64,000 nucleotides of DNA from Candidatus Tectomicrobia bacterium (GCA_016192135.1 JACPUR010000024.1:1-64000); one strand, 5' to 3'. Shown: positions 54,332 through 62,083, counted from the stretch's first letter. Numbers and translations: made by a program. The notes: a model not told the origin generated them from the sequence alone.

Positions 54332-56092
54332 ATGAGCCAGGCGCCCAAGGTCAACGAGCGCACCGAAGTGCGGGACGGCATGAAAATCACCTGGCACCAG
54401 GGAATCCCGGTGGATGACGGCATCGTCCTGCGCGCCGACGTCTACCGCCCCATCGAGGATGGCAAGTACCCGGTCATCCTGACCTACGGAGTGTACGGGA
54501 AAGGGGTGTCCTACCAGGAGGGCTACCATCACCAGTGGAAGAAGATGGTCGAGGACTACCCGGAGATCCTCGAGGGCTCGACCAACAAGTACCAGAACTG
54601 GGAGGTGACGGACCCCGAGCGCTGGATCCCCCACGGCTACGTCTGCGTCCGGGTGGACTCCCGCGGCGCCGGCTGGTCGCCAGGCTTCCTGGACGTGAAC
54701 TGCCCCAGGGAGATCGACGATCTCTACCAGTGCATCGAGTGGGCCGGCACCCAGCCCTGGAGCACCGGCAAGGTGGGGATGCTCGGCATCTCCTACTATT
54801 CCCGGAACCAGTGGCGTGTCGCGGCCCGTAAGCCGCCCCATCTCGCGGCCATCATCCCCTGGGAAGGCGGAAACGATCCCTACCGGGACTCGGGCTACCA
54901 CGGGGGAATCCTGAGCCAGTTCGCCGAGACGTGGTCCAGGGTACAGGTGGCCCACGTGCAGTACGGGTATGGGGAGCGCGGGAAGCGCAACCCCAACACC
55001 GGCGAGCCCGCCGCGGGCCCCGTCACCCTCTCGGACGAGGAGTTGGCCAGGAACCGCACCAACGCCTTCGAGGAGCTCAAGAAGCACCCCCTCGACGACG
55101 ACTGGCACAAGTCGCGCCGCGCCGAGTTCTCCAAGGTCGAGGTGCCGCTTCTCTCCTGCGCGAACTGGGGCGGGCAGGGCATCCATCCGCGGGGGAACTT
55201 CAACGGCTACATGGAGGCGGCCTCCAAGCAGAAGTGGCTCGAGGCCCACGGCGACTCCCACTGGTCGCTCTTCTCGGCCAACTACGGCCTCGCCCTCCAA
55301 AAGAAGTTCTTCGACCACTTCCTCAAGGGCATCGACAACGGCTGGGAGAAGACCCCGCCGGTAACGCTCAACATCCGCCACCCCGGGCCCAAGTTCGTGC
55401 CCCGGCACGAGAATGAATGGCCCATCGCCCGCACCCAGTGGACGAAGTTCTACCTCAACCCGGAGAACATGAGCCTCGACGCCAAGCTCCCCGCCAAGAC
55501 GCTCAAGGCGGAGTACGAAGCGATGGGCGACGGCCTCACCTTCTGGCTCCCCCCGATGGAGAAGGACACCGAGATCACCGGCCCGATGGCGGCCAAGATT
55601 TTCCTCTCCTCCTCGACCAAGGACGCTGACCTATTCCTGGTCGTCCGGGTGTTCGATCCGCAGGGGAAGGAGCTGACCTTCATGGGCTCGACCGACCCCA
55701 ACACCCCCGTCGCCAACGGCTGGCTGAGGGCCTCCCACCGGGCGCTGGACCCCAAGCTCTCCAAGCCCTGGAGGCCCTACCATCCCCATGACAAGGTGGA
55801 GCCGCTGACCCCGGGCGAGGTCTACGGGTGCGACGTGGAGATCGTCTCCTCGTGCCTCGTCGTCCCCAAGGGCTGGAAGCTGGCTCTCTCCGTCCGGGGG
55901 AAGGACTACGAGTACACGGGCCAGCTGAGCGAGTTCGCCAAGAGCTTCCACTACGGCACCCGGGGGACGGGGGGCATGACCCACAACGACCCAGACAACC
56001 GGCCGAAGGAGGTCTTCCACAACCGGGTGACGCTCCACTCGGGAGGCGGCAGGGACACCCACCTGCTCCTGCCCATCATCCCCCCCAAGTAA
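54332..56092 (+). CDS. CocE/NonD-family serine hydrolase
   Basis: This encodes 586 aa. ATG 54332 follows GAGGAGAGCCTC. The S15-type alpha/beta hydrolase domain spans about 25-330: IVLRADVYRPIEDGKYPVILTYGVYGKG, DSRGAGWSPGF, and nucleophile GMLGISYYSRNQW. A C-terminal jelly-roll domain (about 360-580) begins near LNPENMSLDAKLPAKT and includes GPMAAKIFLSSSTKDADLF. Members hydrolyse esters or amides, for example cocaine esterase and X-Pro dipeptidases. There is no signal peptide. It is terminated by the hairpin at 56114-56149. Confidence 0.9.
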   Translation: MSQAPKVNERTEVRDGMKITWHQGIPVDDGIVLRADVYRPIEDGKYPVILTYGVYGKGVSYQEGYHHQWKKMVEDYPEILEGSTNKYQNWEVTDPERWIPHGYVCVRVDSRGAGWSPGFLDVNCPREIDDLYQCIEWAGTQPWSTGKVGMLGISYYSRNQWRVAARKPPHLAAIIPWEGGNDPYRDSGYHGGILSQFAETWSRVQVAHVQYGYGERGKRNPNTGEPAAGPVTLSDEELARNRTNAFEELKKHPLDDDWHKSRRAEFSKVEVPLLSCANWGGQGIHPRGNFNGYMEAASKQKWLEAHGDSHWSLFSANYGLALQKKFFDHFLKGIDNGWEKTPPVTLNIRHPGPKFVPRHENEWPIARTQWTKFYLNPENMSLDAKLPAKTLKAEYEAMGDGLTFWLPPMEKDTEITGPMAAKIFLSSSTKDADLFLVVRVFDPQGKELTFMGSTDPNTPVANGWLRASHRALDPKLSKPWRPYHPHDKVEPLTPGEVYGCDVEIVSSCLVVPKGWKLALSVRGKDYEYTGQLSEFAKSFHYGTRGTGGMTHNDPDNRPKEVFHNRVTLHSGGGRDTHLLLPIIPPK

Positions 56093-56304: not shown

Positions 56305-57639
56305 ATGCGCACCACCGCCGGCGCCAGGCGCGCCGCGCGCGCGAAAGCCTCCGGCACGGCCCGGGAAATGGAAGCCCTGCGCGAGCGGGTGGACAGCCTC
56401 TCGCGCCTCATGGAGGTGACCGCTCTCATCTCCTCGACGCTGGACCTGGACGAGGTTCTGCAGCGCGTCATGAAGCTGGCCAAGGAGATCATGGGGGCCG
56501 AGGCGGCTTCCGTGATGCTGTGGAACGAGGCGGAGCAGTGCCTGGAGTTCCAGACGTCGGTGGGCGGCGTGGGGGTCGAGGAGCTGAAGACCATCCGCAT
56601 TCTCAAGGGGCAGGGCATCGCCGGCTCGGTGATGGAATCGGGCCAGCCGCTCCTGGTGGCCGACGTCAGCAAGGACCCGCGCTTCTTCTCGAAGGCGGAC
56701 GAGAAGACCGGCTTCGTGACCCGCTCCATCCTCGCCGCGCCGCTCATCGTCCACGACAAGGTGGTGGGCGTGGGCGAGGTCCTCAACCACACGGACGGCC
56801 GTCCCTTCAGTGAGCTCGATCTGCAGTTGTTCTCCAGCTTCTGCCGCCAGGTCGCCGTGGCCATCGAGAATGCCCGGCTTCACCGCTCCGAGGTGCGGCG
56901 CCACCTCCTCGATCAGCAGATGGAGATGGCGGCCTCCATCCAGAAGAGCTTTCTCCCCGCCGCCCTGCCCGTGGACAGGGCGGGGCGCTTCGAGCTGGGG
57001 GCGTTCAGCCGCTCGGCCCAGGAGGTGGGGGGTGACCTCTACTGCGTGTCCAGCCTCCCCGACGGGCGGCTTGGCGCCTGCGTGGGGGACGTCTCGGGGA
57101 AGGGCATCCCGGCGGCGCTCTACATGGCCCGGGTGGTGAGCGAGTTCCGGCTGTTCTCGTCGGGAGGCGCCCCCGCGGGCGAGGTGCTCGCCTCGCTGAA
57201 CCAGAGCCTCGGCCAGGGCGGCACGCGGGGGATGTTCGTCACCTTCGCCTACGCGGTGCTGAATCCGGCCACGGGCGCTCTCCATGTGGCCAACGCGGGC
57301 CACCTGCCCCTCATCCTGGCGGAGAAGAAGGGCGGGGCGCGGTTCGTGGGTGGAGCCGCGGGCCCGCCGGTGGGGATGCTCCCCCGGGCGCGCTTTCAGG
57401 AGGAGGAGGTCCGCCTCGCCCCCGGCGACACCGTGCTCATCTACTCGGACGGCATCCTGGAGGCGCGCGGGAAAGACCGGGAGCTGTTCGGCGAGGAGCG
57501 CCTGCTCGCGGCGGCGGCGGCCGCGCCGCGGGGGGCCTCGGGCCTCCTGTCGGGCGTGCATCAGGCAGTCGAACGTTTCACGCAGGACGAGCCTCAGGCC
57601 GACGACATGACCATGGTCTCCCTTTCCTGGGGGGGATGA
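56305..57639 (+). CDS. GAF-domain PP2C (SpoIIE/RsbU-like) serine phosphatase
   Basis: This encodes 444 aa. ATG 56305 follows GGAGAGGAGG. Residues about 25-190 form a GAF sensor (LMEVTALISSTLDLDEVLQRVMKLAKEIMGAEAASVMLWN, then ILKGQGIAGSVMESGQPLLVADVSKDPRF). A short helical linker precedes the PP2C phosphatase (about 225-444) with metal-binding aspartates in VGGDLYCV, GDVSGKGIPAAL and ADDMTMV. It dephosphorylates STAS-domain partners when its GAF domain is activated. The partner genes follow immediately. Confidence 0.93.
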   Translation: MRTTAGARRAARAKASGTAREMEALRERVDSLSRLMEVTALISSTLDLDEVLQRVMKLAKEIMGAEAASVMLWNEAEQCLEFQTSVGGVGVEELKTIRILKGQGIAGSVMESGQPLLVADVSKDPRFFSKADEKTGFVTRSILAAPLIVHDKVVGVGEVLNHTDGRPFSELDLQLFSSFCRQVAVAIENARLHRSEVRRHLLDQQMEMAASIQKSFLPAALPVDRAGRFELGAFSRSAQEVGGDLYCVSSLPDGRLGACVGDVSGKGIPAALYMARVVSEFRLFSSGGAPAGEVLASLNQSLGQGGTRGMFVTFAYAVLNPATGALHVANAGHLPLILAEKKGGARFVGGAAGPPVGMLPRARFQEEEVRLAPGDTVLIYSDGILEARGKDRELFGEERLLAAAAAAPRGASGLLSGVHQAVERFTQDEPQADDMTMVSLSWGG

Positions 57640-57643
57640 GCGC

Positions 57644-58081
57644 GTGGCCGGCGAGGAATGCCCGCGGCGTTTCCAGATCGAGGTGCCTTCGGACCCCGCC
57701 TTCCTGCGGATGGTCCGGACGGCCGTGGACACGCTGTGCGCGGTGGCGGGGATGGATGAGAACGGCCGGTGCATGATCGTGCTGGCCGTGGACGAGGCGT
57801 GCGCCAACATCATCCGCCACAGCTATGACGGCGCGCCGGACAAGCGGATCATCTGCGAGGGCAGGCTGGAGGAGGACGCTCTCTCCTTTGTCCTGCGGGA
57901 CTTCGGCAAGAAGGTCGAGCTCTCCCGCATCCAGCCGCGCGAGCTGGACGAGGTCCGGCCCGGCGGGCTGGGGGTGCATTTTATGCGGAAAGTGATGGAC
58001 AGCGTCGAGTTTGAGGATTGCGGCGCCGACGGCACGTGCCTGACCATGCGCAAGCGGATTTCAGTGGCCCGGGAGGGGTAA
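57644..58081 (+). CDS. RsbW-like serine kinase (HATPase_c_2)
   Basis: This encodes 145 aa from GTG 57644, 4 nt after the phosphatase stop. The GHKL ATP-binding elements are the N-box VDEACANIIRHSYDG and the G-box PGGLGVHFMRKVMDSVEF. In partner-switch systems this protein phosphorylates a STAS-domain antagonist and sequesters a sigma factor. No sigma factor gene is next to it. It ends 1 nt before the STAS gene, so the three form one unit. Confidence 0.92.
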   Translation: MAGEECPRRFQIEVPSDPAFLRMVRTAVDTLCAVAGMDENGRCMIVLAVDEACANIIRHSYDGAPDKRIICEGRLEEDALSFVLRDFGKKVELSRIQPRELDEVRPGGLGVHFMRKVMDSVEFEDCGADGTCLTMRKRISVAREG

Positions 58082-58082
58082 G

Positions 58083-58415
58083 ATGCAGATCGACACGAAG
58101 GAGATTGGCAAGGCCACCCTGCTCCAGGTGTCGGGCGAGGTGGACATGTCCAACTCTCCCCAGGTGCGCGAGAAGCTCATCGGCTTCATCAAGAAGAAGG
58201 CGCCCGCCATCCTGGTGGACCTGGGCGGGGTGACCTACATGGACAGCTCGGGCATCGCCACTCTCGTCGAGGGGCTCCAGGAGACCATGGGCTACGGCGG
58301 CAAGTTCCGCCTCGTGTCCCTCACGCCCAAGGTGCGCCAGGTGTTCGACCTGGCCCGGCTCACCGACGTCTTCGAGATTTATCCCGATCTGCCGAGCGCG
58401 CAGGAGGGGCTCTAG
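58083..58415 (+). CDS. STAS-domain protein (anti-sigma antagonist or MlaB-like)
   Basis: This encodes 110 aa from ATG 58083. The STAS fold has VSGEVDMSNSPQVREKLIGFI and the phosphorylatable motif TYMDSSGIATLVEG, where S55 corresponds to Ser58 of SpoIIAA. Its gene sits between the RsbW-like kinase and mlaE. In E. coli MlaB is a STAS protein that binds the MlaF ATPase. So it could act as a sigma-pathway antagonist, as the MlaB subunit, or both. The intact DSSG motif favours phosphorylation control. Confidence 0.93.
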   Translation: MQIDTKEIGKATLLQVSGEVDMSNSPQVREKLIGFIKKKAPAILVDLGGVTYMDSSGIATLVEGLQETMGYGGKFRLVSLTPKVRQVFDLARLTDVFEIYPDLPSAQEGL

Positions 58416-58417
58416 CC

Positions 58418-59227
58418 TTGCCGGCACCCGAAGACGCCCTCGCGGCCATGGGGCGCGCCGCCATTCACGCGGCGGACGTGGCCCGCGACGTGTGGGGGCT
58501 CCTCAAGGACATCGTTTTCTGGATGTTCGTCGCGCCCTGGAAGCGCCAGAGGGCCGGCATCCGCTGGGAGAGCGTCATCGAGCAGGGAGTGCGGATCGGC
58601 TGGGACGCCATCCCCATCGTCGTCCTCATCAATTTCTTCATCGGCATGATCTCGGCGCTCCAGAGCGCCTCGCTCCTCAAGCAGTTCGGCCAGCTTCTCC
58701 TCATCGCGAACGCGGTGGCGCTCTCCATGACCCGCGAGCTTGGGCCGCTCCTCACCGCCGTCATCGTCTCCGGGCGCAGCGGCTCGGCCTTCACGGCCGA
58801 GATCGGGAGCATGAAAATGGCCGAGGAGGTGGACGCCCTCTCGACCATGGGGCTCAACCCCACCCGATTCCTGATCGTGCCGCGCATCCTGGCCATGGCA
58901 GTGGCCGTCCCGATGCTCACGCTGGTGGCCGACTTCATGGGCATCTTCGGAGGCTGGCTCATCGCCGTCACGGTGGTGGACCTGGGCTCATGGCAGTACC
59001 TGAGGCACACGGCGGACGCCATCGACATGGGCGACGTGATGCGCGGCCTCACCAAGAGCTGCGTCTTCGGCGGGATCATCGCCACGGTGGGCTGCTACCT
59101 GGGCGTCCACGTGGAAGGAGGGGCCGCCGGAGTGGGTCGCTCGACGACCAATTCGGTCGTGGTTTCCATCTTCCTGGTCATCTTCGCGAACCTGATCTTC
59201 ACCGCGTTCTTCTACGTGATCGAGTGA
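58418..59227 (+). CDS. mlaE: MlaE-type phospholipid ABC transporter permease
   Basis: This encodes 269 aa. The start is TTG 58418, with AGGAGGGG 9 nt upstream. The family pattern is clear: VLINFFIGMISALQSASLLKQFG, MTRELGPLLTAVIVSGRSGSAFTAEIGSMKMAEEVDALSTMGLNP, and FLIVPRILAMAVAVPMLTLVADFMGIFGGW. The long N-terminal stretch before the first core helix (about 55 residues) is amphipathic. It transports phospholipids between membranes with MlaF and MlaD. It starts 3 nt after the STAS gene. Confidence 0.95.
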   Translation: MPAPEDALAAMGRAAIHAADVARDVWGLLKDIVFWMFVAPWKRQRAGIRWESVIEQGVRIGWDAIPIVVLINFFIGMISALQSASLLKQFGQLLLIANAVALSMTRELGPLLTAVIVSGRSGSAFTAEIGSMKMAEEVDALSTMGLNPTRFLIVPRILAMAVAVPMLTLVADFMGIFGGWLIAVTVVDLGSWQYLRHTADAIDMGDVMRGLTKSCVFGGIIATVGCYLGVHVEGGAAGVGRSTTNSVVVSIFLVIFANLIFTAFFYVIE

Positions 59228-59231
59228 GACG

Positions 59232-60083
59232 ATGAGCGAGAAAGAATCCCTCCCCCGCGAATCCGCGCCGGCGGCCACGCCCGGCGAGCCGGTGATCGAG
59301 GTGCGCAACCTCGAAACCTATTACGAGGAGCGGCACATCCTCAAGGACGTGAGCTTCGACATCCATAGGGGCGAAATCTTCGTCATCCTGGGAGGCAGCG
59401 GAAGCGGGAAGTCGACGCTTCTCCGGCACATCATCGGGCTGCTCAGGCCCTCGGGCGGGTCCATCAGGGTATTCGGCCAGGAGACGGTGGACATGGGCGA
59501 GGAGGAGTGGGAGAGGCTGCGCCGCCGGATGGGGGTGCTCTTCCAGGGCGGCGCCTTGTTCAATTCGATGACTGTGGGCGACAATGTGGCGCTTCCCCTC
59601 CGGGAGTTCACGGACCTTTCCGAGGCCACCATCGGGATCCAGGTCCGGCTGAAGCTCGGGCTGGTGGACCTGGCTGGGTTCGAGAACCTGCGGCCGGACC
59701 AGCTTTCGGGCGGGATGAAGAAAAGAGCGGGGCTGGCGCGGGCCATCGCCATGGACCCGCAGGTGCTTTTCTTCGATGAGCCCTCGGCCGGGCTGGACCC
59801 CATCGCGGGGGCCGGGCTGGACGAGCTCATCCTCCGGCTCCGCTCCACGTTCGGGATGACGATCGTTGTCGTCACCCACGAGATGGAGAGCGTCAAGAAG
59901 ATCGCGGACCGGGTGCTGATGCTCTTCAAGGGCGAGGCGGTGGCGGTCGGCCGGCTGGAGGAGGTCATGCGGATCGACCATCCGCGGGTCCAGCAGTTCT
60001 TCCAGCGCCAGGCCGACGAGGAGAGGGTGGACCCCAGGCAATACCTGGAGTACCTGACGGCGGGCGGTAGAAGGGAGATTTGA
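59232..60083 (+). CDS. mlaF: MlaF-type ABC transporter ATP-binding protein
   Basis: This encodes 283 aa from ATG 59232, 5 nt after mlaE. It has Walker A GGSGSGKSTLLRHI, the Q-loop FQGGALFNSMTV, the signature LSGGMKKRAGLARA, Walker B VLFFDEPSAGLDP and the H-loop THEMES. The FQGGALFNSMTVGDNVALPL element is typical of MlaF/Ttg2A rather than other ABC ATPases. It powers lipid movement through MlaE and MlaD. The first about 15 residues are an extra Pro/Ala-rich tail. Confidence 0.97.
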   Translation: MSEKESLPRESAPAATPGEPVIEVRNLETYYEERHILKDVSFDIHRGEIFVILGGSGSGKSTLLRHIIGLLRPSGGSIRVFGQETVDMGEEEWERLRRRMGVLFQGGALFNSMTVGDNVALPLREFTDLSEATIGIQVRLKLGLVDLAGFENLRPDQLSGGMKKRAGLARAIAMDPQVLFFDEPSAGLDPIAGAGLDELILRLRSTFGMTIVVVTHEMESVKKIADRVLMLFKGEAVAVGRLEEVMRIDHPRVQQFFQRQADEERVDPRQYLEYLTAGGRREI

Positions 60084-60095
60084 GGGAGTTCAGAA

Positions 60096-61409
60096 ATGCC
60101 CAGGAACAAGTCGCACGAGGTCAAAGTCGGGATTTTTCTGTCCGCCGGGCTCGCCATCTTCGCCGTCTTCGCCATCGTCCTGACCGGCATCGCCGTCTCG
60201 GGGGGTGAAGACCTCTATCGGGTGAAGTTCCGCAATATCGCCGGCCTCGAGAACGGCAGCGTCGTGGCTCTCGGGGGCCTGAAGGTGGGGCGGGTCGATA
60301 GCGTGGGTGTCGCCAAGGACAATCCCTCGATGATGGAGGCGGTGATCCACGTGAAGAAGGGGACCCCCCTCCGCGCGGACAGCAGGGCCGAGATCACCTC
60401 GGTCGGTCTGACGGGCTCGATGTATCTTTCCCTCACCCTCGGCAGCCCGGACGCCCCCATGCTGAAGCCGGGGGCCGCGCTCCGCGGGGTCGAGGCGGCC
60501 AGCTTCCAGGAGGTGATCAACGAGGCGCGCCAGGCGGCCGAGAAGGTGAACAGCATCCTGGGCGGGCTCGGCGAGACGGCCCAGGCCATCGCCAAGGACG
60601 CGCAAGGGCTCATGAGCGACGTGCGGGGGCAGGCCTCCAAGCTGATCTCCACCACCGACCGGGTGCTCGTCCGGGCCGAGAGCATCCTGAGCGCCCGCAA
60701 CGAGCAGAACATCAACCGCTTCCTCAGCGCCGTGTCGCGGGTGGCCGACAGGCTGGAGAAGAACATCGATCCGCTCGTGACCGAGTTCAACGAGACCCTT
60801 CGCATGGCGCGAGCCTCCCTGCGCGAGGTGAACCGAACGGCCGACGCCTACGAGAAGCTGGCGGGCCAGGGCTCGACGCTGGTGGCGGAAATCCACAAGC
60901 GGATCGAGCCCCTCGACCGGCTCCTCCAGACCGAGGCTGCGGCTACGGCCGAGACCATCCGGAATGAGATACGCCAGATCGGCGAGCAGATGCGCCAGAC
61001 GCTCAAGGAGGGCGGGAAGGACTTCGCGAGCGCCGTGGGCGCGGTGGACGGGGTTTCGAGGAAAGTGCAGGAGTTCTTCGAGACCAACCGCCGGGAGCTC
61101 CGGACCATCGTCGTCAACCTGAGCGAAGTGAGCGTACAGGTAAACAAGGTGCTGACCGATCTCGCCGGCGGCAAGAACGGCGACCGCCTGACCGGGGCGG
61201 CCGAAGAGCTCCGGCTGGCTCTTGGCCGCGCCCGTTCTCTGATGACGAACCTCGACGAAACCGTCGCCCGGCATCGCGAGGACGTCGAAACCCTCATTAC
61301 CGATTTGCGCGATATGGCCAGCAACCTGAGCGAGCTGAGCGTCACTTTGCGCGAGCGGCCCTCCCACTTCTTCAAGGGGCCCGCCTCTCCCCGGGAGTTC
61401 CAGGAGTGA
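60096..61409 (+). CDS. mlaD: MCE-domain protein (MlaD-like), long form
   Basis: This encodes 437 aa, about twice the length of E. coli MlaD. An N-terminal membrane helix (11-32, VGIFLSAGLAIFAVFAIVLTG) precedes one MCE domain (about 38-120: YRVKFRNIAGLENGSVVALGGLKVGRVDSV and LTGSMYLSLTLGS). The remaining about 300 residues are long amphipathic helices with heptad character, probably a coiled-coil stalk or tunnel across the periplasm. The last residues (SHFFKGPASPREFQE) are near the end of MCE proteins of this class. Its stop overlaps the lipoprotein GTG. Confidence 0.92.
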   Translation: MPRNKSHEVKVGIFLSAGLAIFAVFAIVLTGIAVSGGEDLYRVKFRNIAGLENGSVVALGGLKVGRVDSVGVAKDNPSMMEAVIHVKKGTPLRADSRAEITSVGLTGSMYLSLTLGSPDAPMLKPGAALRGVEAASFQEVINEARQAAEKVNSILGGLGETAQAIAKDAQGLMSDVRGQASKLISTTDRVLVRAESILSARNEQNINRFLSAVSRVADRLEKNIDPLVTEFNETLRMARASLREVNRTADAYEKLAGQGSTLVAEIHKRIEPLDRLLQTEAAATAETIRNEIRQIGEQMRQTLKEGGKDFASAVGAVDGVSRKVQEFFETNRRELRTIVVNLSEVSVQVNKVLTDLAGGKNGDRLTGAAEELRLALGRARSLMTNLDETVARHREDVETLITDLRDMASNLSELSVTLRERPSHFFKGPASPREFQE

Positions 61410-62083
61410 TTGCCAATCCGAACTGCAAGCCAACCGTTTTTTCGTCGCGCCTCGGGCGCCTCATGGGAGCGACGGCCTGCCTGGCCTTTCTGGCGGCGGG
61501 CTGCGGCGTGGGGACCGCCGATATCCCGGACACTCGCTTCTTCGTGATCGATTACCGCGTGCCGCCTTCCAACCCAGGGACGGGCCAAATGCTCCCCGTG
61601 GTCCTGGGAGTGGAAAGCTTCCGTGCCGATTCCGTCTACCGGACCGACCGAATCGTGTACCGCAAGGTGCCCTACCGGGTGGATTTCTATCCCTACGAGC
61701 GCTGGGGGGCCCGGCCGGACGAATTCGTGACGGACCGGCTCTTGGACCACCTCGCGGCTTCGGGCCGGTTCAAGGATGTGGTCAGGGCCTCGGCGGGGGC
61801 CTCGTACGATTACTTGGTGCGAGGCCGGGTGAAGCGATTCGAGGAAGTGGGATCGTCCAACGGGAAGTTCTCCGCCCTGGCCCAGCTCGATCTGTCCCTC
61901 ATCGACCGGCACACGGGGAAGGTGATCTTTCAGCAGCAGTTCACCCAGTCGACCGAGGCCGGCTCGAAGCCGCCCCAGGGCTTCGTGGAGGCCATGGCGG
62001 AGAATCTGAAGACCCTCTTGGCCGGGGCCACCAAGGAGATCATCGAGGCCGCCAGCCGCCATCAAGGGGCCGCGCGGCCTTGA
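61406..62083 (+). CDS. ABC-transport auxiliary lipoprotein (PqiC/YmbA-like)
   Basis: This encodes 225 aa from GTG 61406, overlapping the mlaD stop (GTGA). A lipoprotein signal ends in LAFLAAGC, with C33 as the lipidated cysteine. The mature part fits the ABC_trans_aux family: RFFVIDYRVPPSN, VVLGVESFRADSVYRTDRIVYR, YERWGARPDEFVTDRLLDHLAASGRF, and FQQQFTQSTEA. In the Pqi system the equivalent lipoprotein sits in the outer membrane and docks the MCE tunnel. MlaA and MlaC are absent here, so the arrangement is closer to Pqi-like bridges. Confidence 0.88.
   Translation: MIANPNCKPTVFSSRLGRLMGATACLAFLAAGCGVGTADIPDTRFFVIDYRVPPSNPGTGQMLPVVLGVESFRADSVYRTDRIVYRKVPYRVDFYPYERWGARPDEFVTDRLLDHLAASGRFKDVVRASAGASYDYLVRGRVKRFEEVGSSNGKFSALAQLDLSLIDRHTGKVIFQQQFTQSTEAGSKPPQGFVEAMAENLKTLLAGATKEIIEAASRHQGAARP

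Follow-up and report, generated by a model that had tools for sequence, protein, structure and literature searches.

Within a 64,000-nucleotide stretch of DNA from Candidatus Tectomicrobia bacterium (GCA_016192135.1 JACPUR010000024.1:1-64000, here termed the window), the genes for a serine phosphatase, a serine kinase and a STAS protein run directly into those of an Mpc-like MCE lipid transporter. Judged from the sequences, we put at roughly three in four the probability that the first three genes form a partner-switching module controlling the transporter through the STAS protein, which would bind the ATPase MlaF; both this binding and the enzyme activities are predicted. The seven open reading frames (ORFs), all on the + strand between positions 56305 and 62083, are as follows (lengths in amino acids, aa):

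56305..57639, +: GAF-SpoIIE (PP2C-type) serine phosphatase, RsbU-like, 444 aa (Pfam SpoIIE 2e-53, GAF 1e-22)
57644..58081, +: RsbW-type GHKL serine kinase, 145 aa (HATPase_c_2 2e-25; top NCBIfam match RsbW, below cut-off)
58083..58415, +: free STAS protein with an RsbV/SpoIIAA fold and an MlaB-like face, 110 aa, predicted phosphorylation site Ser55 (STAS 6e-22)
58418..59227, +: MlaE permease without a fused STAS domain, 269 aa (MlaE 1e-76)
59232..60083, +: MlaF ATPase, 283 aa, with a C-terminal extension carrying Tyr271 and Leu275 (ABC_tran 1e-32; best NCBIfam match MlaF 2e-59)
60096..61409, +: long MlaD/MpcD-type MCE protein, 437 aa, with a single MCE domain and a helical tail (MlaD 2e-14, residues 41-114)
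61406..62083, +: PqiC-like outer membrane lipoprotein (ABC_trans_aux), 225 aa (PF03886 5e-14)

The original prediction had described these genes as contiguous, and all seven were found, with gaps of 4, 1, 2, 4, 12 and -4 nt in order, i.e., no gap longer than 12 nt and one overlap. The first three have the features of partner switching: a SpoIIE/PP2C-type phosphatase with its aspartates, a GHKL kinase, and a STAS protein with a serine at the start of helix 2. The metal-binding aspartates of the phosphatase (D244, D262, D382, D433 and D434) were present in 81/81 relatives. Among relatives of the kinase, the catalytic residues E51 and N55 were kept in 86/86 and D86 in 85/86, and the N-box Glu and Asn (E51, N55) and the glycine-lid residues G107 and G110 were invariant within the clade described below. 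The three proteins are thus predicted to constitute a module of the RsbU/RsbW/RsbV type.

A search with the kinase sequence only yielded 80 loci, 37 of which contained MlaE, among them nearly all of the closest 33. In a tree of 148 kinase sequences, a single clade (support 98/89) held all 67 Mla-linked kinases, together with 19 that were not adjacent to mla genes and three on truncated contigs (L029, L032 and L033), while all remaining kinases fell outside it. The module was found in about 12 phylum-level lineages, i.e., by record title, Tectomicrobia, KSB1, UBP3, Auribacterota, Nitrospinota, Nitrospirota, Acidobacteriota, Methylomirabilota, Planctomycetota, Verrucomicrobiota, Thermodesulfobacteriota and Pseudomonadota, and because the set recurs so widely it represents more than chance. 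Conservation of gene order had been suggested as a check on the original prediction, and proved to be widespread: the complete seven-gene order was present in 35 loci, and the same set was kept in rearranged orders elsewhere, such as STAS-E-F-D-U-W in Verrucomicrobiota, or, in Desulfotignum and its relatives, F-E-D-STAS oriented divergently to the kinase. In one KSB1 genome (L024:8576-12446) an insert of ~3.9 kb, with DNA methyltransferase-like and nuclease/toxin-like ORFs, lies between mlaE and mlaF. In the relatives of genus g2 (L142-L146) the Mla-type kinase is missing. They have another RsbW-like protein, only distantly related, which in most cases neighbours a phosphatase of the SpoIIE type, and a STAS gene lies about 3.5 kb off.

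The kinase and the transporter also co-occur at the level of whole genomes. The genome of the window is, going by those closest to it, Ca. Tectomicrobia-like. Of the 18 genomes from the phylum of the window, nine contained a strong kinase, with a second MlaE beside it in 9/9, and the kinase-less genomes (9/9) had one MlaE only. In 151 genomes of Lysobacterales, using a threshold of at least 100 bits for the kinase, we found the kinase in 49 and the matching STAS protein in 51, with both in 49, the kinase alone in none and the STAS protein alone in two (Fisher p = 9e-38, with kinship ignored; the counts were taken over related genomes, and hence are not independent). Because Mla-linked kinases were the source of the profile used for these genome searches, its scores are tilted towards them; the first kinase search and the tree are independent of this profile.

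This association bears on the idea that an unrelated regulatory cassette has merely come to lie beside the mla genes by chance, which we regard as very improbable. What might be cited for it is one lineage of Lysobacterales, where in about 20 genomes (loci L167, L168, L170, L171, L173-L178, L180, L182-L188, L190 and L192) the phosphatase and kinase form a single fused ORF (GAF-SpoIIE-HATPase_c_2, about 570 aa) located away from the transporter, at a distance of about 53-58 kb where one contig holds both. However, the STAS-mla genes were always present in the same genome, and the arrangement STAS-MlaE-MlaF-MlaD-lipoprotein was retained in 10/10 of the loci read; the same fusion was also seen directly beside mla genes. 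Because the association persists where linkage is lost, chance hitch-hiking is argued against, as it is by the persistence of one gene set through several rearranged orders and by its recurrence in the lineages listed above.

As the original prediction had claimed, the STAS protein carries an intact candidate phospho-serine. Ser55, within a DSSG motif, falls in the alignment at the position of the SpoIIAA phospho-serine and of Thr52 in Escherichia coli MlaB (a B. subtilis SpoIIAA sequence served as yardstick in this alignment and in the profile comparison below, and the sequences of MlaB and MlaF from E. coli were taken from NC_000913.3). In an AlphaFold model (mean pLDDT 95.9), the helix spanning residues 55-70 starts at Ser55. 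The serine was present in 69/69 distinct STAS proteins whose genes, like that of the window, are linked to mlaE and mlaF. We rejected its conservation as proof of the switch, since Ser or Thr also occurs in canonical MlaB, and in 55/55 of the unlinked partner-switch STAS proteins having a residue at this position.

Other residues of the STAS protein resemble those of MlaB. Ala59 in helix 2 was found in 69/69 linked proteins versus 4% of unlinked ones, and is common to most canonical MlaB; the motif Ala-Arg/Lys-Leu at 91-93 (Ala-Arg-Leu in the window) is likewise common to most canonical MlaB, and is rare in other partner-switch STAS proteins. Canonical MlaB sequences scored higher with a profile of Mla-linked STAS proteins than with one of unlinked proteins in 6/6 cases, although by a weak margin of 1.5-12.5 bits. 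In the predicted fold, a strand (98-100) and a helix (103-107) correspond to two elements of RsbV/SpoIIAA, the fifth strand and the final helix, that E. coli MlaB is without (PMC7367683); the fold is therefore not the minimal one of MlaB, and its top matches in the PDB were RsbV, TM1442 and SpoIIAA, with MlaB lower. Taking sequence and model together, the protein seems to combine the scaffold of RsbV with an MlaB-like face, as would be expected for a binder of both the kinase and MlaF.

In E. coli, MlaB uses helices 1-3 to contact MlaF, Thr52 lying close to the middle of the interface (Kolich et al., PMC7367683), and Tyr261, Leu265 and Leu266, on a C-terminal extension of the adjacent MlaF, sit in a groove against MlaB (PMC7367683). 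Tyr271 and Leu275 of the window MlaF aligned with Tyr261 and Leu265. Counting Tyr or Phe and Leu or Ile, this pair was present in 82/83 MlaF proteins of the kinase type, the tail positions were hydrophobic in 6/6 from systems with a free MlaB, and the pair occurred in 0/15 of those whose STAS domain is fused to MlaE. The tail thus appears to track with a free STAS protein and, together with the residues of the latter, ties it to MlaF as a predicted binding partner. In the kinase-less proteins with STAS fused to MlaE the phosphorylation site was Ala in 2/15 and Ile in 3/15, a loss that is no more than suggestive. In these Mpc-type systems (L240-L252, L257 and L259) the site is occupied by Ser, Thr, Ala or Ile, and MlaF is without the C-terminal Tyr/Leu tail.

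It is unlikely, in our estimate, that the locus represents classical anti-sigma control, in which the kinase would hold a sigma factor, the STAS protein would act as antagonist, and the transporter would be only a co-transcribed output of a stress pathway. In the genome of the window we found no SigB/F/G-type sigma factor over the cut-off, either by profile search or on a closer look at its sigma factors, and among 22 genomes with such kinases, controls included, none was found over the cut-off. Below the cut-off the SigBFG profile also matches RpoD, RpoS and FliA, so the closer look was limited to the sigma factors of the window genome; the larger ones are RpoD, an RpoS-like group 2 factor and a FliA/WhiG factor, the rest looking like ECF factors. 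The RpoS-like, FliA/WhiG and ECF factors can be cited in favour of such control, as can the partner switching on RpoS known from Shewanella (as cited in PMC8256260), the RsbW-like sequence of the kinase and the RsbV-like STAS fold. However, the kinase clade follows mla genes and no sigma gene, and anti-sigma control explains neither the tail of MlaF nor the resemblance of the STAS residues to MlaB. The window genome has only one stand-alone HATPase_c_2 protein, the operon kinase (other matches lie within ORFs of 751-1023 aa), and only one DSSG-type STAS protein, that of the operon, the others being a SulP-like transporter and a weak, degenerate match. A STAS protein serving a sigma pathway only, or a gene order that is not conserved, either of which the original prediction had named as grounds for giving it up, is disfavoured, because the set recurs widely, the genome is without a SigB/F/G factor, the kinase clade is tied to Mla, co-occurrence survives unlinking, and the MlaF tail tracks with a free STAS protein. 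The suggestion in the original prediction, that an MlaB-like subunit could turn lipid transport on and off through its phosphorylation, is supported.

Under control of the transporter through MlaF, the free STAS protein would be an MlaB-type subunit, needed on MlaF to hold the ATPase on MlaE and for activity. When it is unphosphorylated, its binding to MlaF would involve helices 1-3 as well as the C-terminal tail that the neighbouring MlaF contributes, and the transporter would be on. The RsbW-type kinase would bind the same face of the STAS protein and phosphorylate Ser55, breaking the contact with MlaF and turning transport off, and the GAF-SpoIIE phosphatase, responding to a signal at its GAF domain, would remove the phosphate and turn transport on. 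This on/off direction is the most likely one by analogy with E. coli, because a T52E mutation in MlaB weakens binding to MlaF and MlaB is required to retain MlaF in the complex (PMC7367683). We consider it likely that a dedicated and sometimes fused kinase-phosphatase pair directly sets the assembly and activity of an ATP-binding cassette (ABC) lipid transporter, by reversible serine phosphorylation, in about 12 diderm phylum-level lineages.

Several observations weigh against this mechanism. The STAS protein and transporter occurred without the kinase in two genomes, and a recheck of genomes G180 and G185 for a kinase found none. Canonical MlaB keeps Ser or Thr without a known kinase, so that Ser55 alone proves nothing. 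MlaF of Veillonella has a shorter tail though MlaB is absent (PMC10665443), and the tail is therefore not strictly tied to the STAS protein. In one kinase-type module (L194:6102-9789) the kinase is very divergent and MlaF lacks the C-terminal tail; the STAS protein there keeps DSSG. Finally, E. coli MlaB with a T52A mutation still binds MlaF while ATPase activity is lost (PMC5016091), so that the role of the phosphorylation site may lie in catalysis and not in assembly. The last result, an intact complex with its ATPase abolished, is what would be expected if the STAS protein remained on MlaF and Ser55 phosphorylation tuned ATP hydrolysis in place, the kinase being a plain modifying enzyme with no swap of partners. 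With T52E reducing MlaF binding (PMC7367683), and with the kinase and MlaF predicted to use the same face of the STAS protein, we judge such tuning to be improbable, slightly more so than anti-sigma control.

The original prediction had called the transporter Mla. It is Mpc-like rather than of the E. coli Mla type, because of its long MlaD (437 aa), its PqiC-like lipoprotein and an operon without MlaC, i.e., it does not have the short MlaD with MlaC of classical Mla. On sequence grounds, it is an Mla-Pqi chimera. As in Brucella Mpc (MpcEFDA; PMC12436622), MlaE, MlaF, a long MlaD and a PqiC-like lipoprotein are encoded together in one operon; in Brucella, however, MpcE carries STAS as a fused N-terminal domain and neither a kinase nor a phosphatase is described (PMC12436622), whereas the 269-aa permease of the window has no N-terminal STAS domain and the STAS protein is encoded by a separate gene. 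The window transporter also resembles the long-MlaD systems that, according to Grasekamp and colleagues, are the most common (PMC10665443). A second MlaE locus in the genome (G000:C1:183959-184588, L132) has MlaD and an MlaC-like gene, without STAS and without MlaF close by. The seven-gene set is flanked, ~200 nt away on either side, by a hydrolase-like ORF upstream (54332-56092) and a Rieske-like ORF downstream (from 62284), and a scan of the set for promoters and terminators gave nothing exceeding chance.

With E. coli MlaFEDB (PMC7367683, PMC5016091) the system shares the MlaE-MlaF-MlaD core, a free STAS protein, Ser or Thr at the same site and the Tyr/Leu tail of MlaF; unlike it, the E. 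coli operon has no kinase or phosphatase gene, its short MlaD is accompanied by MlaC and MlaA, and MlaB is without the RsbV-type fifth strand and last helix. With RsbU-RsbW-RsbV and SpoIIE-SpoIIAB-SpoIIAA it shares a PP2C phosphatase, a GHKL serine kinase and a STAS protein with the same phospho-serine, the predicted fold being closest to RsbV of the RsbV/RsbW complex; unlike in those systems no cognate sigma factor was found, and the ATPase MlaF is the most likely partner. Outside transcription, the nearest working analogy is SiaABCD of Pseudomonas aeruginosa, where the target of a phosphatase, a kinase and a small switch protein is an effector enzyme and not a sigma factor (PMC7647112, PMC8457831), SiaC binding SiaD directly and activating this diguanylate cyclase (PMC8457831). 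It differs in the effector, in having threonine at the site, and in the protein families involved.

Phosphorylation of MlaB has been proposed by two studies in E. coli, which had no enzyme at hand for a test (PMC5016091, PMC7367683), and in the open-access literature searched we found no report of a kinase for MlaB, nor of a kinase-phosphatase pair with mla genes. With both enzymes encoded in the same operon, also in the cultured strains Dokdonella fugitiva, Chiayiivirga flava and Aquimonas voraii, the question becomes directly testable. If the proposal is correct, partner switching, which acts on sigma factors and a cyclase, would reach an ABC transporter as well, and would allow lipid traffic to and from the outer membrane to be set rapidly and post-translationally; here it would have left transcription, and would control membrane lipid traffic.

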